Origin: Victivallaceae bacterium | Lineage (GTDB): Bacteria; Verrucomicrobiota; Lentisphaeria; Victivallales; Victivallaceae | NCBI GenBank assembly: GCA_024405715.1 | Contig: JAKSOG010000003.1 | Location: 1 to 37,296, forward strand | Direction of reading: 5' to 3' | Length of the DNA stretch: 37,296 bases | In this document: piece after piece, positions 19,991-37,165 of the stretch | How the letters are laid out: each line of letters opens with the position of its first letter | Position numbering within the stretch: the stretch's first letter is position 1 | Translations under genes and position numbers: made by a program | The notes under the pieces: generated by a model | What the model was told of the DNA's origin: nothing | Database searches by the model: none | Seen by the model: only the letters and a program-made list of their open reading frames with translations

Positions 19991-21243
19991 TTTACCCTGA
20001 CGTCGGAAATTTCGACCGTACCGGACTGGATCCAAAAATACAATTCCCCGAACGGGAAAAAGGAATAAGCCGGAATTTGCAACCGGTAATCGCGTTCTTT
20101 TCCCGCTTTGATGAACAAAAGATAAAAAGGATGCAACCCCAGACTTTGATCCGGATAACGGACGTTACGGGAAATCTGTATGACGGCATCGCGTTCCGCT
20201 TTGACGTGAAATGAAAACGTCCTTTCCGTTTCAACGGGAAAAGAAGGCACAATGCAAAAAACGTAACCATTCGCATCGACGCGCAACGCTTGGGTATCGC
20301 CGCGTTCGACCACCGATGCGAACGAATTGTTTTTTCCGGCCAAACTGCACTCGATCACCCAATGGGCGGGGAAAACGAATTTTTCCGTTTGCAGGCGCGT
20401 CATCCGCTTGCCCATATCATTGCGAATGCGCGCAAGATCTTTTTCGCTTTGCGCCTTGGAAAAATCGCCGTTTTTGACGAGTTCTCCCCGGTCTTCGGGC
20501 ATTTTCTGCCGCTCGGGAAGAGGCAAATAACGCAGGACGACAAGTTTTTTCTTGCGGTGCCGGTCGAGATATTCCCCGCCGAAAACGCCGAAACGCTCCG
20601 GCGGCGCGATCATCCGCAGCATTTCCGGAGTCAACGTCTCGTTTTTTTTGACTTCGACGACCCAATAAACGGCGTCGAAATCGCCGTCGTAAACCGACAG
20701 ATTGCCGCGCAGATGTATCAGCAACTCCGATAACGGCAGTGGCCTTTCCGGTGCGATACATTCGACGCCGCTGTAATAAGAAATCTGCGAAAACCGCGAC
20801 GTGTACGCGAGTCCGATCACGGATTTCCCGGCGGCGTCTGCCTTTATACGGGAGCAAAGATCCACGATCTTTTTTTCCTGCGGATTATAGTATAAGCACC
20901 GGAGCGTGCCCGCAAGCAGACAACCCGCAAAAAGCAGATCCATCGCGAGCTTCGCATTTTTTTCCGGCAAAAAATGCCACGGTCCCCGTTTCAGCAGATA
21001 GACAAGGAAAAAAAGCGCGGGGAAAACCAGTATCGAATAATAACGCCCCGGCGTGATATGAAAATAAACGCGACCGAAAAAAATCGCGCAGAGCGCCGCC
21101 GCGCCGAACCAGAAACGCAAATCGCGGAATTTTTTCCCGTCGCGGACGAGAAAATAGATCATACCGATGAGGAAAAGGATCCCCACCGGTTCCCACAGCA
21201 AATCGCTGACGCCTAAAAGGGCTTGAATTGTTGAACAAGACAA
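19987..21243 (-). CDS. GT39-like membrane glycosyltransferase, C-terminal part (frameshifted), with CBM-like tail
   Basis: This is the second half of the membrane protein begun at 21977. It opens in the overlap (TTG at 21243, not a likely start) and continues LLGVSDLLWEPVGILFLIGMIYFLV, then several more membrane helices typical of the distal TM block of GT39/PMT-type enzymes. From about 20500 downward it becomes a soluble beta-rich module: LVKNGDFSKA, AHWVIECSL, ALRVDANGY, RTFSFHVKAERDAVIQISRN. This resembles a CBM4/9-type jelly roll ending in GTVEISDVRVK. Adding one T in the T-run at 21216-21219 joins it to the first half for a total near 663 residues. It ends in an ATGA overlap with the next GT4 gene. 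Confidence 0.7.
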   Translation of the reverse strand: MSCSTIQALLGVSDLLWEPVGILFLIGMIYFLVRDGKKFRDLRFWFGAAALCAIFFGRVYFHITPGRYYSILVFPALFFLVYLLKRGPWHFLPEKNAKLAMDLLFAGCLLAGTLRCLYYNPQEKKIVDLCSRIKADAAGKSVIGLAYTSRFSQISYYSGVECIAPERPLPLSELLIHLRGNLSVYDGDFDAVYWVVEVKKNETLTPEMLRMIAPPERFGVFGGEYLDRHRKKKLVVLRYLPLPERQKMPEDRGELVKNGDFSKAQSEKDLARIRNDMGKRMTRLQTEKFVFPAHWVIECSLAGKNNSFASVVERGDTQALRVDANGYVFCIVPSFPVETERTFSFHVKAERDAVIQISRNVRYPDQSLGLHPFYLLFIKAGKERDYRLQIPAYSFFPFGELYFWIQSGTVEISDVRVK

Positions 21244-21977
21244 AATATTTTGACCCGATTGTAAAAAATAACGAAAATATCCGGCATACCGGGAAGACTG
21301 CGCATCACGAAATAGCCGACGAAAACGCCGACCGAAAAGGCGAGAAGCGCAAAGAAAAAGTTTTTCAGCCGCGGTTTTGCCAGCAACGCCGACGGCAATG
21401 CAAATGCGCCGAGCAGAAGCAATTCCAATCCTTCATAACGGCAGAATACCGCGACAACGCCGAAAAGTCCGCAGAAGAAAAAATTCCGTTTTGCGCAGAC
21501 GCGCGTCACCGCGTAAAGCCAGCAGCAAAGCACGATCGCCGCACACAGGAGATAAAGACTTTCGCGCAACCGCTCGCAGGAAAACCTTACCAAAAGCGGC
21601 ATCACCGCCGCAATGCCGGACGACATAAAACCGTATTTGACTTCGCCGAAAAGCCGCTTCCCCGCAAAATAAACAGGAATCAGCAACAACACGCCCGCCG
21701 CGATATTGACGGAAACGGCGGCCGTCGCCGCATCCAGACCGCAATCGGTAAGTTTCCACGAAAGCCAAACGAAAAGCGGCGGTTGCGTCTGCAACAGATC
21801 GGGGAAAGCCGCCGCACCTTCGGCGTGCAATTTTTCGATGAAGCGTACATAACCGATCCCGTCCCGCGTTTCCAGAGGGTGCAGCGCAAGATAGGTGAGG
21901 CGCAACGCCAGCGCGCCGAGCATCGTCGCGATCAGCACACATAGATTCAAAAGTTTTTCCTTACGCACGGGAGACAC
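21213..21977 (-). CDS. GT39-like membrane glycosyltransferase, N-terminal part (frameshifted)
   Basis: This is the N-terminal 254 residues of a polytopic glycosyltransferase of the dolichyl/polyprenyl-phosphate-sugar type (GT39-like). TM1 (LIATMLGALALRLTYLAL) is followed by a periplasmic loop HPLETRDGIGYVRFIEKL that carries the expected acidic catalytic residues. LLQTQPPLFVWLSWKL and further helices follow. I chose GTG 21977: GGAG lies 7 bases upstream, and it overlaps the preceding kinase gene by 17 bases. The frame ends at TAG just after FKPF, while the -1 frame continues with the rest of the family-like sequence, so a single T appears to be missing. If real, the product would be a truncated membrane protein. 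Confidence 0.72.
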   Translation of the reverse strand: MSPVRKEKLLNLCVLIATMLGALALRLTYLALHPLETRDGIGYVRFIEKLHAEGAAAFPDLLQTQPPLFVWLSWKLTDCGLDAATAAVSVNIAAGVLLLIPVYFAGKRLFGEVKYGFMSSGIAAVMPLLVRFSCERLRESLYLLCAAIVLCCWLYAVTRVCAKRNFFFCGLFGVVAVFCRYEGLELLLLGAFALPSALLAKPRLKNFFFALLAFSVGVFVGYFVMRSLPGMPDIFVIFYNRVKIFCLVQQFKPF

Positions 21978-22953
21978 GATGCAACTCCAAAAATTTTTCA
22001 GCGAATGCGGTTTCGCCGCGCTCGCGCCAAAAAGAACAGCGTTCGCCGAGATAACAGTGCCAGTAACGCCGCCACGCCTCTTCCGGAAGACCGAGCGTTC
22101 GCAGATAAAGTCCGTATTCTTTTTCCCGGCGGCGCACGCATTCCCACACCTTCGCGGGCGAAACCGTCCGCAACGCCGGATCGACCGTGTAATTGAAAAG
22201 GTCTTCCAACGGCAAACCGTCGAACGATGCCGATTCAAAATCAAAAAAGAGCGGACGATCATTTCCCGCCATCACGTTCCACGGCTTGAAATCGCGGTGC
22301 GCCATACCGACCGGCGTCATCCCGTCGGAAGAAACGCTTTCCCGTATCTCCGGAGTGAGTTTTTCCGTAACGGCGCGCCACGGGATCTCCCGGCCGCCGC
22401 CGATACGGAAAAATTCCGTCAGCGGAAAAATCAGGGATCTCGCGGACGGGACCGCGCCGGAAAAACTTCCGGCGGCGTAATGCATGAAAAAGCCGATCTT
22501 CCCCGTTTTTTCCACGTTTTCTCCGGGCGCGGAAAAGGCGAATGAACGGATCGTATTTTCCGCGAGCAAACGGTAAACTTCCAACTCTTTTTTCACGCCG
22601 GAAAAACTTTTGCCGACGGCAAATTTAAAATACCCTTTCCCGTGCAGATGGATGACCGCCTTGTCGCGCGTCGGCGAGATCAACGCGGAAAAGGAGTCGT
22701 CAAAAGCAAAAGGCAACTCCCAGTCGAGAAGAGCGCCGATCGCCTCTTTTACTTCGCTTCCGGAAAGAAGAGGTTTCCTTTCCCAGTAAAAAAGCGAATG
22801 ACGCAGCACCGTTTTTTTGACTTTTGCGGAAAAAGATACGGTGCGGTAAAAGTCAATGCTTTGCCGCCAGTCGCGCGCGGAAGATACATTCCAGAAATAA
22901 GTCGCGCCGTTGTTGCCATCGAGGCGCAGAAAAATTTTTTCAGAGTTTCGCAT
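21961..22953 (-). CDS. Aminoglycoside-phosphotransferase-like kinase
   Basis: This 330-residue protein has a kinase-like fold of the APH/choline-kinase type. The catalytic loop is H219-R-D221-x-x-x-x-N226 (HRDFKPWN), followed by the metal-binding D238-F-E (FFDFESASF). The N-terminal lobe has a candidate lysine in HGKGYFKFAVGKSF and a helix KKELEVYRLLAEN. I chose ATG 22953, which overlaps the end of the upstream nucleotidyltransferase/kinase gene by 14 bases. The ribosome binding site is poor, so coupling is likely. In a polysaccharide locus it may phosphorylate a sugar or small alcohol, or prepare a phosphoryl substituent. The substrate is unknown. Confidence 0.75.
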   Translation of the reverse strand: MRNSEKIFLRLDGNNGATYFWNVSSARDWRQSIDFYRTVSFSAKVKKTVLRHSLFYWERKPLLSGSEVKEAIGALLDWELPFAFDDSFSALISPTRDKAVIHLHGKGYFKFAVGKSFSGVKKELEVYRLLAENTIRSFAFSAPGENVEKTGKIGFFMHYAAGSFSGAVPSARSLIFPLTEFFRIGGGREIPWRAVTEKLTPEIRESVSSDGMTPVGMAHRDFKPWNVMAGNDRPLFFDFESASFDGLPLEDLFNYTVDPALRTVSPAKVWECVRRREKEYGLYLRTLGLPEEAWRRYWHCYLGERCSFWRERGETAFAEKFLELHRVSRA

Positions 22954-24229
22954 ATTTTCTGCTTTGGCGCGCGAGGAGCGCGTCGAGGATCCGATCCGCC
23001 GCTTCTTCGGGAGTGCCCTCGTTGCCGATCCACACATAACTTTTATCTTTTGAGGCGAGATATTCCAGCCGCGCATAAATGCGGTCGATGGCTTCGCGGC
23101 TCAATTCCCGCTTGCGGGATAAAATCGTTTCCGGCGCGACCTTGAAAAGGACGTTGCAGTTGCACGCAGGGATGAAATGACGCATCGTCCCGATGAAACG
23201 ATGCGAAAGAAAAATGCCGCTGCGTTCGGAATCGACGATGACGTCGGTGAAGTAACGGTCGAAAAAAACGATGTGTTTGCGTTGGCGAAGCGGCAGTATT
23301 TTGACGAAATAACCGAAAACGTAATCGCTCATATAGTACGCAAGACGGCAGAGCGAACTCGCGACGCCGTGCCGCTTGCCGCGGTGCGGCTGCTCGAAAC
23401 GGCGGTCGACCGTTTTCGTCAGATGCGCCTTGTGCGCGGCTTCGCCGAGATTGGGAAGCAAAGCCGGGCGGAAATGAAAAAGGACGGGGGAATTGACGTT
23501 CAATTTTTCACAAAGCAAGTCGATGACGGTGCTTTTGCCGCACCCGTCGGGTCCGGAAAAGGAGATCATCAGACCGCGGCGGCGGAAAAGGTCGAGAAAA
23601 TAGCCGCCGAGAAACGCCGCCATGCGGCTTACGGCACGTCCGAAATGACTTTTCAAGGCGGCAAAAAAGGCGCGGCGCCGGAGCGTCCATTTCCCCGTTT
23701 TGTCCCAGTATTCCAGACCGCCTTTCCCGAGTGAAAGACGGTTCAATTCCGCTTCGATCGCACCGGCATCACAAACGACCGCCGCCTGCCGGACGGAAGC
23801 GTATTTTTCCGGATACGCCGCCCCGAGGATACGGCAGTAGAGATATTTCGGCAGGAACGTCAATCCGGGCGGGAGATGATAGATCTTCCCGTTGAAAATG
23901 CGTTTTTCCAATACCTTTTCCTCGTCAAGGAGATCGATCCCCATCCATGCGAAATTATATTGAAAATCCAGTTGAAAGACGCGGTATGTCCGGTCGACGA
24001 AAACGATCGTGAAAAACTGATGGTCTTCATTGGTGTACAAAATCCGGCATCCGTGTCCGGCGGCAAAATCCGGCAATTCTTTTTTGAGTTGCCGCAACTC
24101 ACGCGCGGGAATGAGAATGTCGATATCGCGGCTGTCGCCGGCTTCCGGCAAATTCCCGTAATTGCGCAAAACGGCGTAACGGAAACGACCGTTGAGCAAT
24201 TCAAACAGGGCAACAAGAAATTCAGTCAT
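22940..24229 (-). CDS. Nucleotidyltransferase-thymidylate-kinase-like fusion protein
   Basis: This 429-residue two-domain protein combines two folds. Residues 1-150 look like a minimal nucleotidyltransferase: YAVLRNYGNLPEAGDSRDIDILI with D35 and D37, then D88 in FQLDFQ. Residues 218-429 resemble a thymidylate-kinase P-loop fold: MISFSGPDGCGKST (Walker A, G226-T234), FFDRYFTDVIVD as the D-R-Y acceptor motif, and LFKVAPETILSRKRE as a lid region. Such proteins occur in exopolysaccharide loci, where true dTMP kinase activity is doubtful. It may activate or transfer a phosphorylated group together with the adjacent APH-like kinase. It starts 13 bases after the GT2 stop. Confidence 0.75.
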   Translation of the reverse strand: MTEFLVALFELLNGRFRYAVLRNYGNLPEAGDSRDIDILIPARELRQLKKELPDFAAGHGCRILYTNEDHQFFTIVFVDRTYRVFQLDFQYNFAWMGIDLLDEEKVLEKRIFNGKIYHLPPGLTFLPKYLYCRILGAAYPEKYASVRQAAVVCDAGAIEAELNRLSLGKGGLEYWDKTGKWTLRRRAFFAALKSHFGRAVSRMAAFLGGYFLDLFRRRGLMISFSGPDGCGKSTVIDLLCEKLNVNSPVLFHFRPALLPNLGEAAHKAHLTKTVDRRFEQPHRGKRHGVASSLCRLAYYMSDYVFGYFVKILPLRQRKHIVFFDRYFTDVIVDSERSGIFLSHRFIGTMRHFIPACNCNVLFKVAPETILSRKRELSREAIDRIYARLEYLASKDKSYVWIGNEGTPEEAADRILDALLARQSRKYAKL

Positions 24230-25267: not shown

Positions 25268-26344
25268 CTAACGTCCTCCGGTAAGGACGTCATATGCGGG
25301 AGCGTGTATTTTCTTTAACAAGTTCCCCGCAAAGACACAAATCAGTAATGCTATTACAGGAGCGCAAAGAGTCGCGATCAACGAAACAGGATTGCTTTTC
25401 CCGAATAGCAAAAAGAATCCGACAATAATATTGCCTATGATCAAACTGTGCGAGCAATAAATCCAAAACGAAAAATTAAGAAAAAGAACATTCTGCCGAA
25501 TGTGAATCCGGCAAACGGCACACCACAACAAATAAATTGTACTCAACGGTAACAAACGCTGATATAGCATAATGCGTGAATCATCATAAAACGACAGTAA
25601 CAACAGAAGCAATACAAAAACAAAATCTGCCGCCATAAAAATTTTATCAATCCGAATTCGGTGGAGGTACTCTCGCAACACCATGCCAAGACAAAAATAT
25701 CCAATCGCAAAAAGTTTGACATCAATCAGAGGGAGCAAAGAATCCGGCCAGATAAAAATGCACAAAAGACTTAAAAGCATTAACCCTTTTTTAACTCTAA
25801 TATAAAAACTTTTCAGCAACGGTGAAAATAAAAATATAATCAATAAAGTCCTTACATACCAAAGCGGACGATTGCCTAACGGACCGACCAGCCCATTCCC
25901 AATCATATCATAACTCGTTATTCCGAACAACGCATTCAATCCATCTGACCAGGAGCGATACTGCAAAATGGTATTGGCAAAGATATCCCTATGCATATAC
26001 CAGCTAATAAGTATTGAGGAAAAAGCTTGTACAATTGCACCTATTACCGCCCAAGAGACATAGGGGATAAACAACGTATGAATTTTAACTTTTATCAATG
26101 AAAAATAATCCCTCTTGTGGGCAGAAACAAAGAAAAAACCTGATACCAGAAAGAAATAAGGGACTGCCCATCCCGTCCAAATATCACAAATGCTCTTTTG
26201 AAATACAAGATTCCAATGTTCCGTATGGGGAAGATTCAGATAACTCTTGGAATGGATTATTAAAACAGTAATCACTGCACAATATGATAACAGGCGAAGT
26301 GCAATGCTTGTTTGTTCTGTTACTTCAGTTGGTTTAGTAGACAT
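25268..26344 (-). CDS. Membrane acyltransferase (acyltransferase 3 family)
   Basis: This 358-residue polytopic protein of the PF01757 type transfers acetyl or similar groups to sugars. The N-terminal helix LLSYCAVITVLIIHSKSYL carries the conserved His. PYFFLVSGFFFV is the typical second motif, and NRPLWYVRTLLIIFLFSPLL the third. About ten membrane helices are visible. I chose ATG 26344, with AGGTG 6 bases upstream; the in-frame GTG at 26353 lacks spacing. The gene is clearly more AT-rich than its neighbours and uses many A/T-ending codons, which suggests recent transfer. Confidence 0.85.
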   Translation of the reverse strand: MSTKPTEVTEQTSIALRLLSYCAVITVLIIHSKSYLNLPHTEHWNLVFQKSICDIWTGWAVPYFFLVSGFFFVSAHKRDYFSLIKVKIHTLFIPYVSWAVIGAIVQAFSSILISWYMHRDIFANTILQYRSWSDGLNALFGITSYDMIGNGLVGPLGNRPLWYVRTLLIIFLFSPLLKSFYIRVKKGLMLLSLLCIFIWPDSLLPLIDVKLFAIGYFCLGMVLREYLHRIRIDKIFMAADFVFVLLLLLLSFYDDSRIMLYQRLLPLSTIYLLWCAVCRIHIRQNVLFLNFSFWIYCSHSLIIGNIIVGFFLLFGKSNPVSLIATLCAPVIALLICVFAGNLLKKIHAPAYDVLTGGR

Positions 26345-26353
26345 CGCTTGCAC

Positions 26354-26593
26354 CTAATTCAAACACAGAATCAAACCGAAACCCAATGATGAAAAAAAAT
26401 AAGGAACAACCCCGATCATCCAATCTTCGCAAAAGAACTCCTGTACCTGAATCCTCCGTCGGGAGGCATAAGACAGGCCCAAATAACTTTTACCGGTACA
26501 GTAAATGTTGCCCCAAACGACAAAATCCGTAACCCAACGTTTATATCTGATTTTATTTCGGATATTTGCATCACCGATAAAGAAATCCGTAAG
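26354..26593 (-). pseudogene. Possible gene remnant between GT9 and acyltransferase
   Basis: A 79-codon open frame without a usable start fills almost all of the 257-base gap between two genes. It reads with plausible protein composition, for example NKIRYKRWVTDFVVWGN, SYLGLSYASRRRIQVQ and EDWMIGVVPYFFSSLGFGL, and ends at TAG just before the downstream ribosome binding site. The final segment resembles the VPYFFLVSGFFF motif of the downstream acyltransferase, but I cannot assign a family. It begins directly after an in-frame TAA. It may be a decayed fragment left by replacement of a neighbouring gene, or just chance. Confidence 0.3.
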
Positions 26594-26601
26594 TTATAAT
26601 C

Positions 26602-27636
26602 TCAATGCAATGATATTATTACTTTTTTTGCGGCATCGCACACTTCATCGGGGGTAATCAAATCAATGCAACGCGCCGGATCAAAGGAACAAACGGGAAC
26701 TTCGCATTCTTCACATTCGCAATGATGACGCAAAAAAACGTGGTTTTTTCCCGGAGGATACCATTTCCCGACAGGATTACGTGCGCTGAAAATCCCCACA
26801 CAGGGAAGCCCCGCCGCCGCCGCCATATGCATTGTTCCGGTGTCGTGCCCGACATAAAGTTTGCAATGCATCATCGCGGCGATGGATTCCCGCAAGTCAA
26901 ATCCCTGTGAAGCCGCACGCGCACCGCACCGGAGTTCCCGTATCATCTGCTCCTCTTCGGCCTTTGACGTGTCATCTCCGAAAAACAATGGGAAAAAATG
27001 ATCTCTCCGCGCCAAATGCCGCAGAACTTCACGATGCTTGGCGACCGGCCATTTGCCATTTCTGCTTTTTCCCCCCATTCCGTAAACGACAGGAATTGAA
27101 CCGGGGGGGATATTCAGCGCATCAAACCATTGACCGGCTTTTTGCTTTTCCGCTTCGGTCAGTTGAAAATTTCCGTAGTCTTCCACGGTATGAGGGAACC
27201 CCACGCCGTCTGCCGCCAAAGTATCGATCATCCGTTGGGCGACATTGACCGACGTCGAAACATATTGATCAATACCATGAAAAACACGAATCCCGGCGCG
27301 GGCAAAAAAGATTTTATCGCGCTTGCGTCGCTCCCGATCATCATCCCGGGCAAGATAAACCAATTCGTCAAAATGGCTCAACCGGAGTTTGCAAATGAGT
27401 TTCCCCGCCATCAATATGCGCATCCAACGGTGTTTCGGCAACGTATAACTTAAAAACTCGTCAACATAATCCGTCGGTTTCAGCAACGCCTCCGTAGCGG
27501 AAAAACGCCCCTGCAGCGCGCTCAGGAGAGTAATATGCGCCGACGGGTACGTTTGCCGGATCATCTGAAAAGCGGGAAAGGCGATGATCGTATCGCCGAT
27601 CGTTCCGGTGTAATAGATAAGAATTTTTTCAGCCAT
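26602..27636 (-). CDS. Glycosyltransferase family 9 (heptosyltransferase-like)
   Basis: This 344-residue GT-B enzyme of the ADP-heptose:LPS heptosyltransferase type has the N-terminal motif LIYYTGTIGDTIIAFPAFQMIR. The C-terminal motif is LYVGHDTGTMHMAAAAGLPCVGIFSARNP, which binds the nucleotide sugar. A Cys-rich tail segment (CECEECEVPVC) is present and may be structural. I chose ATG 27636: AAGGGA lies 6 bases upstream, and it overlaps the preceding acyltransferase stop by 8 bases. GT9 members also occur in O-antigen and capsule loci, so the actual sugar may not be heptose. Confidence 0.9.
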   Translation of the reverse strand: MAEKILIYYTGTIGDTIIAFPAFQMIRQTYPSAHITLLSALQGRFSATEALLKPTDYVDEFLSYTLPKHRWMRILMAGKLICKLRLSHFDELVYLARDDDRERRKRDKIFFARAGIRVFHGIDQYVSTSVNVAQRMIDTLAADGVGFPHTVEDYGNFQLTEAEKQKAGQWFDALNIPPGSIPVVYGMGGKSRNGKWPVAKHREVLRHLARRDHFFPLFFGDDTSKAEEEQMIRELRCGARAASQGFDLRESIAAMMHCKLYVGHDTGTMHMAAAAGLPCVGIFSARNPVGKWYPPGKNHVFLRHHCECEECEVPVCSFDPARCIDLITPDEVCDAAKKVIISLH

Positions 27637-28663
27637 TCTTTTTCCCTTGATCTTTTGCATTTGACGAATGCTTCCAACCGTTGAAAACAAAATCTGCATG
27701 AAGCCGCTTCGCCGTTATTGCACATAGAAGGCAAAGCATCAACGATATTCCGAAAATCACCAATCCCGACTCGAAACTTTGCCGCGGGAAACCACGCCGG
27801 AGGAGGTTGTAGAAAAAAGGATGCAACCAATAAATCGCGAGGGATTTTTCTCCGAGCAGACAAAACGCGGACAATCGGACGAGTTTTTCCTTTCCCAGAT
27901 AGATGCCGCAGAATGCGGCGATCGGCGACCAAAGCCAGGTCAGATAATGAAAATTCCACGGCAGATATCGACGTAGCGCGACAAATCCCGGAGCCAGTAA
28001 AAACACGGGGATCGCCCAATAAACTTTCTTTTTCGGGAGAGGTATTTTTTCCAGAATAAAACGCGCCGCGATCCCGGCGGTGCAAAAACGAAGTCCGCCG
28101 AGTAAAGCAAAAGGTATCATATCATACGGCAACCAATAATCAAGAACTCCGCAAACCGGCAATATCCAAAGCAAAAGCGACAACACGAAAAGAATGGCTT
28201 TTCCCGTCCGCGGGAACAAAAAATAGAGGTCGCGGAAAAACATCACGGCGACCAGCGTCGGCAAAAACCAAAGAAACGCGCCGCCGCAATACTGTGCCAG
28301 CAAATTTTCGCTGCCCGTCAAAAGGGCGCGTATGATCCCCGCAACGTCGACCGTAAAATTTCCGATAAAACAACGGCACGCAATGGAAACCAAAGCCCAA
28401 AAGAAATATAACGGATAAAAACGGAAAAGATTTTTCTTCTGCCGGTTCAGAAAAAATGCCGTTTTTTCCATAGTCGGCATGGGGGACATTCCGTAAAGAA
28501 AAGGCAGCATATAAAAACAGTAAATATGGAAAGAATAGATGTATGGGAACGCCCCCGTCGCATCCATCAGCAAAGGATTGTGACCGAGCACGACCAATGC
28601 GATCAGCAATCCCTTGATCGCCGTTGATTCGGACAGAGACAACAAGGACGGATACGTTTTCAT
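27629..28663 (-). CDS. Membrane acyltransferase (acyltransferase 3 family)
   Basis: This 344-residue polytopic protein begins with SLSESTAIKGLLIALVVLGHN, a match to the acyltransferase-3 first helix with its conserved His. SFHIYCFYMLPFLYGM is the usual second helix, and FLWFLPTLVAVMFFRDLYF the third motif. It most resembles the fucose 4-O-acetylase-like branch. The ATG at 28663 overlaps the upstream stop as ATGA, with a GGGGAAAG site before it. It probably O-acylates a sugar residue of the glycan made by this locus. Confidence 0.85.
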   Translation of the reverse strand: MKTYPSLLSLSESTAIKGLLIALVVLGHNPLLMDATGAFPYIYSFHIYCFYMLPFLYGMSPMPTMEKTAFFLNRQKKNLFRFYPLYFFWALVSIACRCFIGNFTVDVAGIIRALLTGSENLLAQYCGGAFLWFLPTLVAVMFFRDLYFLFPRTGKAILFVLSLLLWILPVCGVLDYWLPYDMIPFALLGGLRFCTAGIAARFILEKIPLPKKKVYWAIPVFLLAPGFVALRRYLPWNFHYLTWLWSPIAAFCGIYLGKEKLVRLSAFCLLGEKSLAIYWLHPFFYNLLRRGFPRQSFESGLVIFGISLMLCLLCAITAKRLHADFVFNGWKHSSNAKDQGKKNG

Positions 28664-29682
28664 TCTTTCCCCGCGATCAACTTCCCGTAAAAAGTCGTTT
28701 TTCCGTCCTCCGTTTCGGATCGCCACGGCACACGGAAACTTAATTTAAAAACAAAATCGTTTTTCGTCAGATCACGATACTTTTTTTCGTCGAACGGGGA
28801 ATCCATCCATTTCGCCAATTCGACACGATTTTCGCACGGCAAAGCGGAAAAAGCGTTTTGCAATTCCTCCCGGCAACCAGGCAAATGGCGGACGGCATAA
28901 TAAACAAGATGATCCTGAAAAACATAATCCGGCCAACATTTTTCCCTCAAGGCGACGGTCAAAAGCATTTCCCCTACAAACGCAAAAAGCGCATGATTTT
29001 TTCGACGGCAACCGATACACCAGGTACTCCAATTCAAATCCCGCGATGTCCAAAAGCAAACCGAATCAGGTGAAGGATCCGAATAGATGCATCCGCCGGC
29101 GGTAAAAACCGGCAACGATCGTATCGTTTCCAGCGGCAACCGTTCGGGAACATAAACCGTAGCATCAAGCCAAAGTCCGCCATGTTTTGCGAGCAAATTC
29201 ATACGGACAATATCGCTGAAATGGGCGAACGTGATCTTTTTTTGCGATAACTTTTCAAAAAGTTCCGGCGGCAAATCAAGATAATCTTTGAGGTTTTCCG
29301 TCGTGACCAGAACCGCTTCCGGATGATTTTTTCGCAATTTTTCAAAACACGCTTTCACAAGGAGCGGCATCGCTTTTTCGCCCTGCCCCCAGAAAACCCA
29401 AATGCGGTACGGTTCGGCGGGAGTCGTTTCCGACGGAGACCGCAACAGCTTTTGAACCAAATCGCCGTATTTCGTTTCAATAAAATGGTCGAGATATTTC
29501 GTTTTCCCGTCCAAGGCGAATCGGGAAAGCCGATAACGACCGCGCCCCCGCAAATAAAAAGCGGTCCACCACAGCAGACTGTAAAAAGCAAAGCGCCAAC
29601 TGTAATAACGGCCGATCGCCCAGGTCTCACGCAACCGCCGGAACAAAAGTTGCCGCAAAGATTTTGCACGGGAAACCGTCAT
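28660..29682 (-). CDS. Capsular polysaccharide synthesis glycosyltransferase (GT32-like)
   Basis: This 340-residue protein contains the Caps_synth/GT32 signature: YRIWVFWGQGEKAMPLLVKAC, then VTTENLKDYLDLP, then HFSDIVRMNLLAKHGG followed by LWLDATVYVPE. The D-x-x-R and W-x-D-x-T residues form the donor/metal site. A Cys/Trp-rich central segment (WSTWCIGCRRKN) follows. The basic N-terminus with an aromatic stretch near residues 25-45 may attach it to the membrane. Both ends overlap neighbours as ATGA, with the polymerase upstream and an acyltransferase downstream. Confidence 0.87.
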   Translation of the reverse strand: MTVSRAKSLRQLLFRRLRETWAIGRYYSWRFAFYSLLWWTAFYLRGRGRYRLSRFALDGKTKYLDHFIETKYGDLVQKLLRSPSETTPAEPYRIWVFWGQGEKAMPLLVKACFEKLRKNHPEAVLVTTENLKDYLDLPPELFEKLSQKKITFAHFSDIVRMNLLAKHGGLWLDATVYVPERLPLETIRSLPVFTAGGCIYSDPSPDSVCFWTSRDLNWSTWCIGCRRKNHALFAFVGEMLLTVALREKCWPDYVFQDHLVYYAVRHLPGCREELQNAFSALPCENRVELAKWMDSPFDEKKYRDLTKNDFVFKLSFRVPWRSETEDGKTTFYGKLIAGKE

Positions 29683-30944
29683 GATAGCATTTCCTCTTTT
29701 TTTTCAATTCCCCGCTTTTTTTCTTTTTCTCTTTCCCAGAAAAAGTAATTCTCGCAAGTCATAACCATCATCAATTCCCACGCATAATGAATGTTGGTCC
29801 CCGTTCCGCCGGCTAAAGCGAGCAGCATAAAAATGGATCCTAACGATTTAAAACGGTACGCGCACAGAAAATTAAAAGTCATTCCAATCAGATAAAAGAT
29901 TAACCCGTAATCGTCGAAAAGCGTCGCCCGTTCCGAAACAATGAGATTATTATCCTTTGCATAATCGATCCCGAGGCCAAGCCAAGTGTCCATATCGGAA
30001 AAATCGACTTGCAAAGAATTCAATAACGGTGCAATACGCGATGAACCCGCTTTCCCCTTTATTTCATCCGGATTTCCGCTGATCGTGGCATTGATTGTCG
30101 AAGTCGCCCGATGCGCCTGTTCAAATTGTTCGGCATCCAGATTGTCCATAAAAATGAAAAGCCCTGCGACGGCAGGCAACATATAAACAAAATTTTTACC
30201 CGTCACAAAATAAAGTGAAAAAACGATCAGACAACAATAGGCGGTGGCGCTTCCCATCGTACACATCATCCACAGCCAAGGGATGGTCACCCGGCGCAAT
30301 TCTTTGTCGCAAAACAATTCTTTCACGGAAAAACGTCCCCGTTTGCGACGATATTCCATACACTTGACGAAACAATAAAAGCAAACCAACATGATCCGGG
30401 CGAAATGACTCGGCTCCAGTGCCAGCGAATTACAACCGAGTCCGCGCTGTAAATTATACGTCAAATTGATGACGGGAAGCGTCCGCCCCGTCGCAACGAC
30501 GACTTGTTGCAAAACGCAGACGATGAAATACGCCCAAATCAAAAATTTCAGGATCTTGATGAAATGCTCAAGCGTAAAGATCCGGTGCCGGAAAATCAGA
30601 TTGTAAAAACCGATATAAGTACAAGTCAGTCCGATGGAAAAAAAGAGTGTGTCCCAACGGATCGGACGTGCGAAATCACTGTTCCAGTAGGAAACAAAAA
30701 GTTGCCATCCAAGATATAAGATACCGACCATCAGCGCACGGGACAAGGTGATCGTCGCCAGCATCATCCCCGTCGCGGCAACCATCAAAAAGAAATGGAT
30801 CGGTCCGAATCCCGCCCCTCCCTCGATCGGCATATAATAGATGCCGAAAGCGACAAGAAAAAAAGTTCCCCATTTCGTCAGAAACGGAGTGTATTTTGCC
30901 GTCGAACGGTCGTCGGCAGTTGTGACGATTTCGATCGATGTCAT
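29679..30944 (-). CDS. O-antigen/polysaccharide polymerase-like membrane protein (Wzy-like)
   Basis: This 421-residue protein has about ten to twelve membrane helices. A large extracytoplasmic loop (DAEQFEQAHRATSTINATIS to NSLQVDFSDMDTWLGLGI) lies in the middle-to-C-terminal part, the layout of Wzy-type polymerases. A further clue is the periplasmic RIAPLLNSL...LGLGIDYAKDNN segment. Sequence conservation in this family is low, so the call rests on topology and on the position inside a polysaccharide locus. I chose ATG 30944, which overlaps the preceding small ORF's stop as ATGA. A longer frame from 30971 lacks a ribosome binding site. Confidence 0.65.
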   Translation of the reverse strand: MTSIEIVTTADDRSTAKYTPFLTKWGTFFLVAFGIYYMPIEGGAGFGPIHFFLMVAATGMMLATITLSRALMVGILYLGWQLFVSYWNSDFARPIRWDTLFFSIGLTCTYIGFYNLIFRHRIFTLEHFIKILKFLIWAYFIVCVLQQVVVATGRTLPVINLTYNLQRGLGCNSLALEPSHFARIMLVCFYCFVKCMEYRRKRGRFSVKELFCDKELRRVTIPWLWMMCTMGSATAYCCLIVFSLYFVTGKNFVYMLPAVAGLFIFMDNLDAEQFEQAHRATSTINATISGNPDEIKGKAGSSRIAPLLNSLQVDFSDMDTWLGLGIDYAKDNNLIVSERATLFDDYGLIFYLIGMTFNFLCAYRFKSLGSIFMLLALAGGTGTNIHYAWELMMVMTCENYFFWEREKEKKRGIEKKEEMLS

Positions 30945-31120
30945 CGACTTTTTCCCGACACAAAACACCATTTTTCGTTAAAACCGTGACCGCCCAAGCC
31001 GTCGGTCATGAAAACATTGAACGGCCCGAAGCATACACCGTCTTTGAAATAAGGTAATACGATGCACAAAACAGCGACGCCTTTCACGGCATCAAGAAAC
31101 GTTAAACGCTCATTCGCCAT
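30941..31120 (-). CDS. 59-residue small protein, acyltransferase-like N-terminus
   Basis: This short ORF fills the apparent gap between an acyltransferase gene and the polymerase gene. Its ATG (31118-31120) overlaps the acyltransferase's end by 11 bases, and its TGA overlaps the polymerase ATG as ATGA, so it is fully embedded in the operon. It starts MANERLTFLDAVKGVAVLCI, very like the first helix of acyltransferase-3/DUF418 proteins, and runs on through VLPYFKDGVCFGPFNVFM to end WCFVSGKSR. One membrane helix is likely (residues 12-25). It may be a truncated acyltransferase kept by coupling, or a genuine small membrane protein. Confidence 0.6.
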   Translation of the reverse strand: MANERLTFLDAVKGVAVLCIVLPYFKDGVCFGPFNVFMTDGLGGHGFNEKWCFVSGKSR

Positions 31121-32207
31121 TTTTTCCGCTCCGATGGATCCGCCCGGTCAAAATATCCAAAACAACCGGCATAAAACGCTTCAGAGCAAAATAACCGGCA
31201 TAAACAATCATGCCGCCGCCGAAAAAGAAGAGACCGCCGAGAAGCAAAAGATAATATGATGTCGGGGAAATGCGCGATCCGACGATCCGCAACAGCGCGG
31301 TGCCCGCGAGTGCGTGCGCCGCGTACACGAAAAAAACCGGTTCGACGAAAAAACGGTCGTAGCGGCTTCCGGTCCCGAACCGCAAAAAACGCAACAGAAA
31401 AAGAGTACCGGGAACGTAAAACAGATAATCCAACCGACGTTCGGCAAGTTCGGTACACAATGAAACTCCGGCAAAAGTTCCGGCGATCATCACCGCCGTC
31501 AGCGCCATCGCCGCATACGCCGGCCATCCGGACTCAAAACAATGAAGCGAAATTTTGTTTTCACGGAACCATATCCCGAAACAAAATGCCGAAAGCATAT
31601 AGGGCTTGAGATGTTCGTGCACGCTCAACGGCATACGCGGCTGAAAATACGCCAAAACCGCCGCAATGCCAACGGGACACAACCAACCGTATTTTCCACG
31701 GCACCCGATGCGCAACAAAGGATAAAGCACAATAAAGCAAAAAATACTCCGGATATACCAGAGCGGACCATCCGCCGGATGATGCGTCACCCCGAAAAAT
31801 CCGTCTGCGATCCCGCCCCAAGTGTTCAACTTCAATTCGGCGACCTTTTGTTGCATTGCCGGCATAAATTTTGCGCTGACGAGAAAGGCGGCGATATAAA
31901 TCGCATTCCAGGTAAAAAACGGGATCAGCAACGAAAAAAATCTTTTTTCAAGCAAATTCACATATCCCCGCCGATCAAACGGGGACATCTGTGTGTAATA
32001 GCCGGAAATCATAAAGAATGCGCCAAGCACCCACACCGAAATCCGTCCGGCCACCCAGTTGATACCGGAAACAACCGGCGCCTGAGGAACGACGGCGACG
32101 GTGCAGAAAGCGTGCTCGAGAAAGATTCCCCAAAGCATCAATGCTTTCAAATTGGCGACGGCGGTATCCCGCGACAAATGCGCCCCGTTATTTTGCGTTG
32201 CCGCCAT
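31110..32207 (-). CDS. Membrane acyltransferase (acyltransferase 3 family)
   Basis: This 365-residue polytopic protein has an N-terminal helix, VANLKALMLWGIFLEHAFC, that carries the conserved His position as EH. It is followed by WVLGAFFMISGYYTQ and by GPLWYIRSIFCFIVLYPLL, the two other motifs of the family. The C-terminus ends in a basic tail (GRIHRSGKNGE). An AGAGG site lies 7 bases before the ATG, which overlaps the GT2 gene by 20 bases. Likely role: O-acylation of a sugar in the assembled glycan. Confidence 0.85.
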   Translation of the reverse strand: MAATQNNGAHLSRDTAVANLKALMLWGIFLEHAFCTVAVVPQAPVVSGINWVAGRISVWVLGAFFMISGYYTQMSPFDRRGYVNLLEKRFFSLLIPFFTWNAIYIAAFLVSAKFMPAMQQKVAELKLNTWGGIADGFFGVTHHPADGPLWYIRSIFCFIVLYPLLRIGCRGKYGWLCPVGIAAVLAYFQPRMPLSVHEHLKPYMLSAFCFGIWFRENKISLHCFESGWPAYAAMALTAVMIAGTFAGVSLCTELAERRLDYLFYVPGTLFLLRFLRFGTGSRYDRFFVEPVFFVYAAHALAGTALLRIVGSRISPTSYYLLLLGGLFFFGGGMIVYAGYFALKRFMPVVLDILTGRIHRSGKNGE

Positions 32208-33108: not shown

Positions 33109-34200
33109 TTATCTTTTTTGCGGGCAAAGCCATTGTCCGGTCAGGCATCTCATCACGCCGGGAAAAAATCGTCCCGCATAGAAAAAGCAATAAGACAAGG
33201 CAATCGGGAAAGCCACACCGCAAACCGCATATAAAATCCTTATTTTCCAATCAAGCGTTGCGGGAGGACAAAGCTCCGCTAATGAAGATGCATCATGCCG
33301 CAAAAAATAACCGCCCGCGGTAATCGCCTTGAATATCGCAAAGTGCAATGCCATAATCGAAAAAGAATAAACTCCGCATACACGAAATATTTTTGTAAAA
33401 AACGAACTTCGCCGAATCTTTTTTGTCAGCATGACTGCACATACGATTCCCGCTGTTGCAACCGCCAATGCGGCATTCGGATTTTTCATATCGTTGTAAG
33501 AGATCCCCTTTTCAGCTCCCAGGAACAACAACACGGAAGCAGCAAGAAAAATGCTCCATCTCAATTCCCGTTTTCTGAAACGCTTTCCAATCGAATGATA
33601 TGTGCAAAACCACCCCATCACATAATAGATAAACAGCGTAAAAGATATGTTTAGCGAGCGAGGAAAATAAAAATTCGCGCCTACGCAATACAACAATATG
33701 GAGAAAACCGCAATCCCAGCTTGAAAAAAAGAATCCGAAACATATTGGCGTAGAAATCTCAAAACTTCCCACAAAACAGAAATTTCAAAGAGGCAAATAA
33801 GGAACCAGAGTGCGCCGCCCAAAGATTCGCCGCCGCCCATCGTCAAAATCCGAAGCACATTCTTGAAAAAGCCGCACCATGACAATGTTTCAGACGAATA
33901 CAAATGATATTTTACAAGCAAATTGTGGAACATCAAGAAAAACAACTGGAACATCACAAACGGCACATAGAGCCGAGCAGTTCGCTTGCGTAAATTTCTC
34001 CAAAATTCTGCGGTTGCGTCTGCCCCTTGTGTTATTGCTTTGTTTTGTTTATCACACCTCCCCGCAAGCATTCCAGAAACAAAAATAAAAAGCGGGATGT
34101 GAAACATATAGACCACATTATTTCCGATACTGCAATGCCCCAATACGACGGCAATAATTCCAATGCCGCGTAAAATATCAAATTCAATGCGTCGTTTCAT
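33109..34200 (-). CDS. Membrane acyltransferase (fucose 4-O-acetylase-like)
   Basis: This 363-residue polytopic protein begins MKRRIEFDILRGIGIIAVVLGHCSIG, the classic acyltransferase-3 opening with its conserved Arg-Gly and His. MFHIPLFIFVSGMLAG and GALWFLICLFEISVLWEVL follow. A C-terminal YSFSIMALHFAIFK is also family-like. ATG 34200 is chosen for that start; the frame continues 28 codons upstream without support, and the ribosome binding site is weak. The gene is visibly AT-richer than the neighbouring HAD gene, as with two other acyltransferases here, hinting at separate acquisition. Confidence 0.86.
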   Translation of the reverse strand: MKRRIEFDILRGIGIIAVVLGHCSIGNNVVYMFHIPLFIFVSGMLAGRCDKQNKAITQGADATAEFWRNLRKRTARLYVPFVMFQLFFLMFHNLLVKYHLYSSETLSWCGFFKNVLRILTMGGGESLGGALWFLICLFEISVLWEVLRFLRQYVSDSFFQAGIAVFSILLYCVGANFYFPRSLNISFTLFIYYVMGWFCTYHSIGKRFRKRELRWSIFLAASVLLFLGAEKGISYNDMKNPNAALAVATAGIVCAVMLTKKIRRSSFFTKIFRVCGVYSFSIMALHFAIFKAITAGGYFLRHDASSLAELCPPATLDWKIRILYAVCGVAFPIALSYCFFYAGRFFPGVMRCLTGQWLCPQKR

Positions 34201-34244
34201 AGTTGCTTTGACGGAAAAATATCCGCTGGAAACCGGACAACATT

Positions 34245-36104
34245 TTACGGAAAAATGAACCGATGATTCCGGTGCCTTTTCCAAATTTTATACAGGGGGT
34301 AAAAACAGCGGATGGCGAGACGATGCCAGCGCATCACTTGTTTCGCCGCGAAAAATCCGAGCGTCACTTGCAAACTTGCCACGTCGAAAGCCGTCACCCG
34401 GAAACCGGCGGCGATCCGGCAAACTTCCGCGACCGACAATTTTTTGACGAAACGGACTCCGTCGAAATCGGGCAATTGCAGAAGCGGCGTCCAATCGACG
34501 GGACCGTGCATTCCCGTCCAAAAATCAAGCGAACTTTTCGCCCACAGATACAACGCGGCTTCCGACGGCGCAAAGTCATTCATCAGACGGGCGATCTCTC
34601 CGCAAATTTGCACATGCGTTTCAACGAGTTCCTCGGGGATGCCGTCCTGATTTTTCCATACGGGCACAACGATCCCGTTTTCCTCCCGGTACGACGCCGT
34701 CGACGGCCGGCAACTTGCGGAAAAATAATGTTCGACCGGAATGGTCGTTTCCGTCGAAAGCCCGCCTTCCCGGAAAAAACTCCGGTATTTCCCCGCCGAA
34801 CAGCGGAAAACGTCGCGCCGGACGCCGTAATAATAAAATTCCGCCTCCTTTTGTCCGGCGCTGCGTAAAATATCCCGGAGCATAAGGCGCGAAGTCCCCA
34901 GCCATCCGACGTCGACGAAACGGCGTTCCCCTTCGTCGAAAAGTTTTTCCTGCCGGAAATAACGCAACACAAGATTTTTCGCTTTTTGCGCTTTTTCCTT
35001 TACGATCCCGGTCAAGTCCGACGCAAAAATTTTGTCGAGGAAATCATTTTCCAGGTCGCGAGAATGAATCGTTTCATAGGGGAACGTGATCCCGCAGGAA
35101 TTCAAATCCATTTCCCCGACTTGAAGCGACTGCAAAAGTTCACTCACTTTGCCGCCGAGCAGCGTTCCGTGCTCCATCACCCTCAAATAGGCGGTGCGGC
35201 TGAAATCATCCGCGAGGTAAGGCAGGAGCAACGAAGCGCGCGAAACAAATAGTTCGTGCAGTTCGGGACCATCCCGCCATTCCTCCGCGATGCGTTTCAA
35301 AACGTAGCCGTCGCGGGAAAGGAAATAAAGCCGCCGGACATTTTCCTGCTTCGCTTCGCGCATGATCCGCTCAATATAAGGCAAGTAAGCAGGCGCGATG
35401 AAATCGGCGGCCAGTACCGCCGCGCGGTCATTCTTTTTTCGCATCCGCGCATAACGGGAAAATCCCGTCAGCACGGAAACTTCTGCGGGATCGGGCAACA
35501 TTTTCGCGGCGTTCCGGCAGAAAATTTCCGCATCGGAAAAGGCGGCGTCCGCGGGATCCGTCCCGATTCCGGCGCGCCGGGCGCATTTGACGTCGCTTTT
35601 CAGATTGTCGCCGCAATGGATCCACTCGGAAGGATGGTATTTTTCGCGGAGCAGGCGGTAGAGATCCCCCGTATCCTTGCGCGCGTTTTCTTCGCAGGAA
35701 ACGAAAACTTTTTCCCCGCCTTCAAGACATTTTTCTCGACGCAGGATCTCCTCCAAAAACGCGGAAGGCAAATACATATCGCTGACGAAAAGGATCGCAT
35801 ATCCCGTGCGGCGCCGTTCCGCGATCTTTTGCGCGACGGCGGGATTGGCGGCGAGATTTTCGCTTTCGACGGACAATTCCGCGGCGATCAAATCTTCTTT
35901 GGCGTATCCGGGGAAATCAGCGGTCGCATAAATGCCGGCGATCGTGTCGCCCTCGGCATATTTCCGCCAGACGAGAAAATCTTCGCGCAACGCCGGATCG
36001 TCGGGATAAAGGCGTTCCGCCAAAAAATAAAAGATATTTTCCGGCGCGCCGCATTTCCGGACGAGCGCCGTATCGAAAATGTCAAACGAGGCAAGTTTCA
36101 TCAT
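34245..36104 (-). CDS. HAD-superfamily protein of polysaccharide loci (COG5610-like)
   Basis: This 619-residue protein has an N-terminal HAD domain (about 1-195): LASFDIFDTALVRK with nucleophile D8, FVSDMYLPSAF supplying the motif II Ser, and HCGDNLKSDVKCARRAGI supplying the acidic motif. The residue two after D8 is Phe, not Asp, so the general acid of ordinary HAD phosphatases is absent, as in haloacid-dehalogenase-type members. The remaining 420 residues (RRLYFLSRDGYVLKRIAEEW, FVDVGWLGTSRLML) form the companion domain seen in COG5610 proteins of O-antigen/capsule loci. Its role is unknown. ATG 36104 overlaps the upstream stop as ATGA. Confidence 0.78.
   Translation of the reverse strand: MMKLASFDIFDTALVRKCGAPENIFYFLAERLYPDDPALREDFLVWRKYAEGDTIAGIYATADFPGYAKEDLIAAELSVESENLAANPAVAQKIAERRRTGYAILFVSDMYLPSAFLEEILRREKCLEGGEKVFVSCEENARKDTGDLYRLLREKYHPSEWIHCGDNLKSDVKCARRAGIGTDPADAAFSDAEIFCRNAAKMLPDPAEVSVLTGFSRYARMRKKNDRAAVLAADFIAPAYLPYIERIMREAKQENVRRLYFLSRDGYVLKRIAEEWRDGPELHELFVSRASLLLPYLADDFSRTAYLRVMEHGTLLGGKVSELLQSLQVGEMDLNSCGITFPYETIHSRDLENDFLDKIFASDLTGIVKEKAQKAKNLVLRYFRQEKLFDEGERRFVDVGWLGTSRLMLRDILRSAGQKEAEFYYYGVRRDVFRCSAGKYRSFFREGGLSTETTIPVEHYFSASCRPSTASYREENGIVVPVWKNQDGIPEELVETHVQICGEIARLMNDFAPSEAALYLWAKSSLDFWTGMHGPVDWTPLLQLPDFDGVRFVKKLSVAEVCRIAAGFRVTAFDVASLQVTLGFFAAKQVMRWHRLAIRCFYPLYKIWKRHRNHRFIFP
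36041..36095. repeat. 55-bp perfect direct repeat, copy 1 (inside HAD gene)
   Basis: These 55 bases encode the HAD nucleophile region on the minus strand (residues 4-22 of the HAD protein). They recur without mismatch at 37242-37296, the last 55 bases of the window, 1201 bases away. Confidence 0.95.
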
Positions 36105-37165
36105 TTTATCAAATGATCCGCAAAGCCGCAACGACGTTGCAGTGATAATTTTTCAAAAATCCACCGCCTTGGGAAATCCAACAAAAGGCAGACGATAAAA
36201 ATCAAAAATGCCAAAAACAAAACCGTCAAAAACAATGCGATCGGAGTTAGCGATGCCAAAAAAGAGAATCGTTTCCCGTTACTCCCCAATTCCCATACGA
36301 TTGGATGTACGTGAATCAGGTAAACAGCAAATGCAGACGGCGAAAAAATCTGTGCAAACCGCCCCCATCCGCCGTTTCCCGCGATGGGCATTTCGGCAAA
36401 AGCAAGCAGTAAAAAAATTGCGCCCAAAAACATCATCGGAGAAATATACATAAGGCAGCTCGTACTTCCAAGCGGATGATGCAGCTGCATCAACGTTTCA
36501 CGCCACACACAACACAATGCGACCATTATGCAATATCCGAGCAGATTACCACGCCATGACCACCTGACGGGCAATCGATATTTTCGGAAAAACCCGCCGA
36601 CAAGGTAACAATACCCCAACCACAATGCATTGTACCCATGCCGTTGTTCGAAAAAGGTGGATGTTTTCCAGAAAAACATCGGAACGATGCAAAAAAAGAT
36701 AAACAAAACAATCAAACTGTAGAATAAATTCCTTGCATCGGTGTTTCGGATCGCCGTATTCAACAACGGCATTGCGGCAAAAACGATCACATATGCGTTG
36801 AAGTACCAATACTCGCAACTCAAGATCGGGAACAAATACTTCCACAGCCCATGCCAATTCCCTCCAGTCGAAAAAAGCGGCATAATCACGGCAATCAGCA
36901 AAGAGTAGTAGACAACCTGACACCAAAGCGCGAGGATTTTACTCGGCTTCAATTGCGCCGACATGCAACCGACATAGCCGCTGATCATCGCAAAACAGTT
37001 GACCGCGCAGCCGGAAATCGCACACAAAAGAAATGCGCATCGCTCATTGCCGATGCCACCATAGCCGGCGATATGAAGAACCACCACCAGAAACATCGAA
37101 AACAAACGCAATAAGTCGATACCGTTATTGCGTCCATTACTCGAATTTTCACGGATATCAATCAC
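36101..37165 (-). CDS. Membrane acyltransferase (acyltransferase 3 family)
   Basis: This 354-residue polytopic protein opens NNGIDLLRLFSMFLVVVLHIAGYG, with the Arg and His of the first acyltransferase motif. NCFAMISGYVG and EYWYFNAYVIVFAAMPLL are the next two, and SAFAVYLIHVHPIVW is the usual C-terminal motif. Translation starts at GTG 37165, supported by a strong GGAGGGG site 6 bases upstream (37172-37178). The gene is AT-rich relative to the HAD gene that follows. Its stop overlaps the HAD start (ATGA), so the pair is probably co-translated. Confidence 0.88.
   Translation of the reverse strand: MIDIRENSSNGRNNGIDLLRLFSMFLVVVLHIAGYGGIGNERCAFLLCAISGCAVNCFAMISGYVGCMSAQLKPSKILALWCQVVYYSLLIAVIMPLFSTGGNWHGLWKYLFPILSCEYWYFNAYVIVFAAMPLLNTAIRNTDARNLFYSLIVLFIFFCIVPMFFWKTSTFFEQRHGYNALWLGYCYLVGGFFRKYRLPVRWSWRGNLLGYCIMVALCCVWRETLMQLHHPLGSTSCLMYISPMMFLGAIFLLLAFAEMPIAGNGGWGRFAQIFSPSAFAVYLIHVHPIVWELGSNGKRFSFLASLTPIALFLTVLFLAFLIFIVCLLLDFPRRWIFEKLSLQRRCGFADHLIK

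Follow-up and report, generated by a model that had tools for sequence, protein, structure and literature searches.

A 59-codon reading frame between an acyltransferase-3 gene and a putative polymerase gene in a Victivallaceae polysaccharide cluster: a candidate acyltransferase remnant

The polysaccharide cluster and its small reading frame

The window analyzed here is a stretch of 37,296 nucleotides from a Victivallaceae bacterium (contig C105 of a 1.83-Mb genome in 181 contigs). The right part of the window is occupied by a polysaccharide cluster on the minus strand with five acyltransferase-3 (AT3) genes (Table 1), and five of the six AT3 matches in the genome lie on this contig. The cluster also encodes family-2 and family-9 glycosyltransferases, a protein of the capsular-synthesis type and a putative polymerase. 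The name of the last is putative because no Pfam or NCBIfam model matched the protein. Its longest open reading frame begins at 30971; the start at 30944 is supported because the length up to the conserved GIYY then equals that in the homologue from a genome of the same genus (G026), counted from its own start.

Table 1. Coordinates of the features discussed in the text (positions in the window unless a locus is named).
Feature	Position	Strand	Remarks
59-codon ORF under test	30941..31120	-	ATG at 31120, TGA ending at 30941; 59 aa; begins MANERLTFLDAVKGVAVLCIVLPYF, ends FVSGKSR
Overlap of ORF start with upstream acyltransferase end	31110..31120	-	11 bases, exact
ATGA, overlap of ORF stop and polymerase start	30941..30944	-	exact if the polymerase starts at 30944
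AT3-like stretch, about residues 2-26	31043..31120	-	AT3 N-terminal profile and 21-position matrix
Intact AT3 gene upstream of the ORF	31110..32207	-	PF01757, 49.9 bits
Multi-pass membrane protein, putative oligosaccharide polymerase	29679..30944	-	name putative
Capsular polysaccharide synthesis protein, downstream of polymerase	28660..29682	-	PF05704
AT3 genes of the cluster	25268-26353, 27629-28726, 31110-32207, 33109-34284, 36101-37165	-	
G026 AT3 gene split between two frames	L023 10888-11139 and 11016-12023		PF01757 positions 3-59 and 75-323
G026 115-aa AT3 remnant	L023 12218-12565		PF01757 19.9 bits, below cut-off

The cluster is tightly packed, and only two of its 16 junctions have gaps longer than 21 bases (248 and 165 bases), overlap lengths at the junctions depending on the choice of start codon. 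The longer gap lies at 26354-26601. The 165-base gap separates the AT3 gene at 31110-32207 from the polymerase gene, and it is the site of the 59-codon ORF. The first-pass annotation described this ORF as complete, with an 11-base overlap at its start and an ATGA overlap at its end, and our analysis confirmed its coordinates and both overlaps. A GGAG motif is located 8 bases 5' of its ATG; the same scan found comparable motifs before some neighboring genes and none before others. The 59-aa product has a single hydrophobic stretch, with a mean hydropathy of up to 1.79 over 19 residues. It had no matches in Pfam or NCBIfam, where no match to PF01757 appeared even at E <= 10, let alone above the gathering score, and the PDB search returned nothing useful.

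Relatives and junctions of the reading frame

We searched for relatives of the ORF in several collections. Besides the ORF itself, there were no matches below E 0.004 in 137 genomes of the order or in 387 genomes of the phylum. At E <= 0.05, 19 of the 387 phylum genomes, the own genome included, gave matches; the 11 loci inspected contained unrelated frames, except for the N-terminus of one membrane protein (L062), which we take to be DUF418-like. No relatives were found in a collection of 84,980 species or in the viral contigs and plasmids searched, and a DNA search gave only short, chance-like matches. Homologues of the polymerase occur in four of the 33 other genomes of the genus (51, 50, 35 and 35% identity). 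The ORF was unmatched at all four of these loci, including the region upstream of each polymerase. The upstream neighbors also differ among them: two match the family-2 transferase of the window and the other two are, as judged by eye, other glycosyltransferases. The same acyltransferase/polymerase junction was absent from every relative examined. Thus the sequence comparisons give no sign of a conserved new small protein, and the absence of the reading frame from all collections searched argues against a function.

The first-pass annotation also took the precision of both junctions as being unlike ordinary decay. We shuffled the 165-base gap 5,000 times with its dinucleotide composition preserved and the flanks fixed. 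An ORF of 50 aa or longer that spanned at least 85% of the gap appeared in 1,060 shuffles; in 875, both junctions were placed likewise. Because the ATG falls within the last bases of the upstream gene and the TGA within the ATGA of the polymerase, any open frame in phase acquires these overlaps. Neither the open frame nor its pair of junctions therefore exceeds chance; they constitute weak evidence, and the argument from precision is unsupported because the shuffled gaps reproduce the geometry so often. The polymerase homologue in another genome of the genus (G018) is likewise preceded by a 155-base leader with a 52-aa ORF that is unlike the 59-aa ORF, and this is a fair picture of a chance outcome. 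These results, together with the lack of relatives, speak for the explanation that the 59-codon ORF is simply open by chance within a leader of 165 bases, and that its likeness to the first AT3 helix is a hydrophobic coincidence noticed owing to the neighboring acyltransferases. We regard this explanation as possible and as the main competitor of the one proposed below. If the ORF is instead a relic, then it serves as a warning that neat ATG/ATGA junctions alone are not the mark of a gene.

Likeness to the first helix of AT3 proteins

To compare the ORF with AT3 proteins, we used a profile of 26 AT3 N-termini (24 from loci and two from acyltransferases of the window). Of 26 AT3 rows read, 25 were kept, with L050 dropped for a stop; the AT3 gene at this locus (1465-2604, in genome G098) has a single in-frame TGA that interrupts it after codon 45. 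The profile took 24 of the 25 kept loci, L044 being left out because its match begins late, and L045, L048, L053 and L056 were also unused. A 21-position matrix was made from 24 of the 25 rows, one row without the R/K-X10-H pattern being left out.

The ORF scored 10.6 bits on the profile over residues 2-30. This score was exceeded by two of 20,000 composition shuffles of the ORF, reached by nine of 20,000 shuffles that preserved hydropathy classes, and reached by none of 659 windows of 59 aa from the non-AT3 proteins of the window. Among 2,249 distinct six-frame ORFs from the window and the fetched loci (L001 and L011, which are copies of the window, were excluded), the 59-aa ORF ranked directly beneath the AT3 proteins and was the best outside recognizable AT3-like genes, the next scoring 7.8 bits. 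In four related loci, 56 of 9,057 open 59-aa windows reached 10.5 bits, and 55 of these were in AT3-like frames while one was off-frame at an AT3 locus. The 21-position matrix was less generous: 15 of 139,210 positions scored equally high, including the ORF itself and about seven AT3 sites. When whole genomes were searched with an AT3 N-terminal profile of 24 rows, the matches listed at E <= 10 for the genome of the ORF included one of 14.1 bits at an unrelated place but not the ORF. Most of the genomes searched gave weak unrelated matches of about 12-17 bits, which again speak for chance. Therefore, the AT3 likeness of the N-terminus weakly but measurably exceeds local chance, whereas it does not exceed the whole-genome background, and it is meaningful only given its position because the genome-wide search misses it. 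The local controls put the likeness at roughly 1 in 2,000 to 1 in 10,000, which speaks against coincidence, although these figures concern a simple hydrophobic pattern in a family that was picked after the sequence had been seen.

The match sits at the natural AT3 N-terminal position of the ORF, and D10, K13 and Y24 align with the D, R/K and H of AT3. The R-X10-H motif of AT3 has been called absolutely conserved, and in helix 1 of OafB it consists of Arg14 and His25 (PMC9833829). In the ORF this signature is broken, with Lys13 and Tyr24 in register; all 24 aligned AT3 rows have the His, while Lys occurs in some of the AT3 proteins here. In other words, the ORF shares with helix 1 of AT3 (PF01757) the LD-x-x-(R/K) register at the helix start, the hydrophobic run and the N-terminal position, but it differs in the Lys for Arg, the Tyr for His, the lack of RXXR and of further helices, and the extent of the likeness, which is about 26 residues only. 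AT3 proteins are expected to have about ten transmembrane helices, whereas the ORF has 59 residues with one hydrophobic stretch, and past helix 1 it contains no recognizable AT3 sequence. These first residues, in register with AT3 helix 1, appear to be its only above-background signal. The first-pass description of the ORF, an acyltransferase-like first helix followed by none of the remaining protein, is thus supported, weakly but measurably, by the profile and the local controls.

Three other possible connections with AT3 proteins were considered and rejected. The ORF tail (residues 26-59) was unmatched by a full-length model of 26 AT3 proteins, as it would not be if an internal deletion had kept the AT3 C-terminus. 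The remaining minus-strand frames of the gap, where a frameshifted continuation of an acyltransferase might lie, had no AT3 match. The FVSG near the end of the ORF resembles the AT3 ‘F-x-x-SG’ motif, but this likeness was not counted because the profile leaves it unaligned.

We also examined codon statistics. When the codon contrast was trained on the cluster, the score of the ORF was 5.9 bits. This value lies at the 20th percentile of 293 true coding windows and surpasses 97.4% of 380 open off-frame windows. When all genes of the window were used, the ORF ranked at the 17.5th percentile of 510 coding windows and surpassed 89.6% of 824 off-frame windows. A cruder earlier coding score gave 0.10, the off-frame level, against 0.16-0.42 for the neighboring genes. 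These statistics are compatible with a decayed coding stretch and are not decisive, and in leaning toward coding-derived sequence they count against a chance frame.

Origin of the reading frame

AT3 genes do break in such clusters. A genus search gave 21 profile matches that begin no later than profile position 6, with E values up to about 0.001, and the two that lie in frames shorter than 150 codons are both in G026. Downstream of its polymerase homologue, this genome has two broken AT3 genes. One is split between two frames, for which a frameshift mutation, phase variation or an assembly error are conceivable causes. The other is a remnant of 115 aa that keeps helix 1 and a hydrophobic tail; it lies directly before a glycosyltransferase-like gene and looks like an internal deletion. 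This remnant resembles the 59-aa ORF in being a broken AT3 with helix 1 in a related polysaccharide cluster, and the two show 78% DNA identity over 41 bases in register. However, it differs from the ORF in keeping the His, in its apparent C-terminal hydrophobic helix and in its location downstream of the polymerase. O-antigen and capsule clusters carry truncated genes at recombination junctions between cassettes; the ORF differs from such remnants in that its parent gene was not found. A literature search for acyltransferase remnants in O-antigen clusters gave nothing pertinent.

Based on these observations, we propose with moderate confidence that recombination in the cluster left this ORF behind as the 5' stub of an AT3 gene, and that any coupling to the polymerase is incidental. 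A recombination or deletion event in this acyltransferase-rich cluster would have fused the start codon and the first transmembrane helix of an AT3 gene to the polymerase start, removing the remaining ~300 codons. The stub would have kept its short overlap with the preceding gene, and its frame would end at the TGA within the ATGA of the polymerase. Later drift may have changed the His of R-X10-H to Tyr24 and the Arg to Lys13 and made the second helix unrecognizable. Any ribosome coupling into the polymerase would be a by-product, and beyond such incidental translational coupling no mechanism is needed. The ORF with its junctions, the likeness to helix 1 beyond the local controls, the missing relatives and the broken AT3 genes in a sister cluster are shown here; the deletion, the drift and the by-product nature of any coupling are what we infer.

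For the 5' stub we count the profile controls, the codon statistics, the N-terminal position, the concentration of AT3 matches on this contig, the broken genes in G026, and the placement of the ORF in one of only two long gaps. Against it we count the absent His, the shortness of the matching segment, the failure of the genome-wide search to list the ORF and the lack of a C-terminal AT3 piece. Furthermore, no intact parent gene was found in the own genome or in the relatives searched, and the order, phylum and 84,980-species searches gave no full-length AT3 carrying the N-terminus of the ORF. The earlier suggestion of an internal-deletion relic holds in part: a deletion relic fits better than a small protein, but a 5' stub is preferred to a deletion retaining both ends because C-terminal AT3 similarity is absent from all minus-strand frames of the gap. 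Overall, we rank the 5' stub first among the explanations, followed closely by chance, and consider a function unlikely. If the ORF is a relic, it is another trace of acyltransferase gene gain and loss in polysaccharide clusters.

Alternatively, the ORF might encode a small membrane protein with a function of its own, or it might be a translated leader whose ATGA junction sets how ribosomes pass into the polymerase gene. The GGAG, the ATGA junction, the open frame, the hydrophobic stretch and the coding-compatible codon statistics are consistent with this. However, we consider it unlikely given that relatives are lacking in every collection and that the frame is missing upstream of all four polymerase homologues of the genus; the AlphaFold model, made without an alignment, was uninformative (mean pLDDT 48.5, zero helix). 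The proposal of a small membrane protein acting on an acyltransferase or the polymerase is thus unsupported, because the frame has no relative in these collections. It seems still less probable that a truncated AT3 helix has been kept as a polymerase-coupled membrane peptide, located in the polymerase or a neighboring acyltransferase or regulating one of them; if translated and kept, such a peptide from the first helix of an enzyme would be worth study. The least credible explanation is a non-coding leader with a regulatory role, such as a terminator, riboswitch or promoter: five terminator-like pattern matches, including one within the ORF, occur in 30800-31300, where shuffles averaged 1.2, but Rfam gave no match, no promoter-like site was found, and folding was no stronger than that of shuffles (z -0.70; 46 of 200 folded equally well).

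The AT3 gene upstream of the ORF has relatives in two of 77 other genomes of the family. The one in G018, the only one read, continues into homologues of other cluster genes. It is a 953-aa ORF (L024 14333-17194) that begins with a complete AT3 domain, continues into homologues of the window genes at 21961-23076 and 21213-22262, and may encode a fusion protein.
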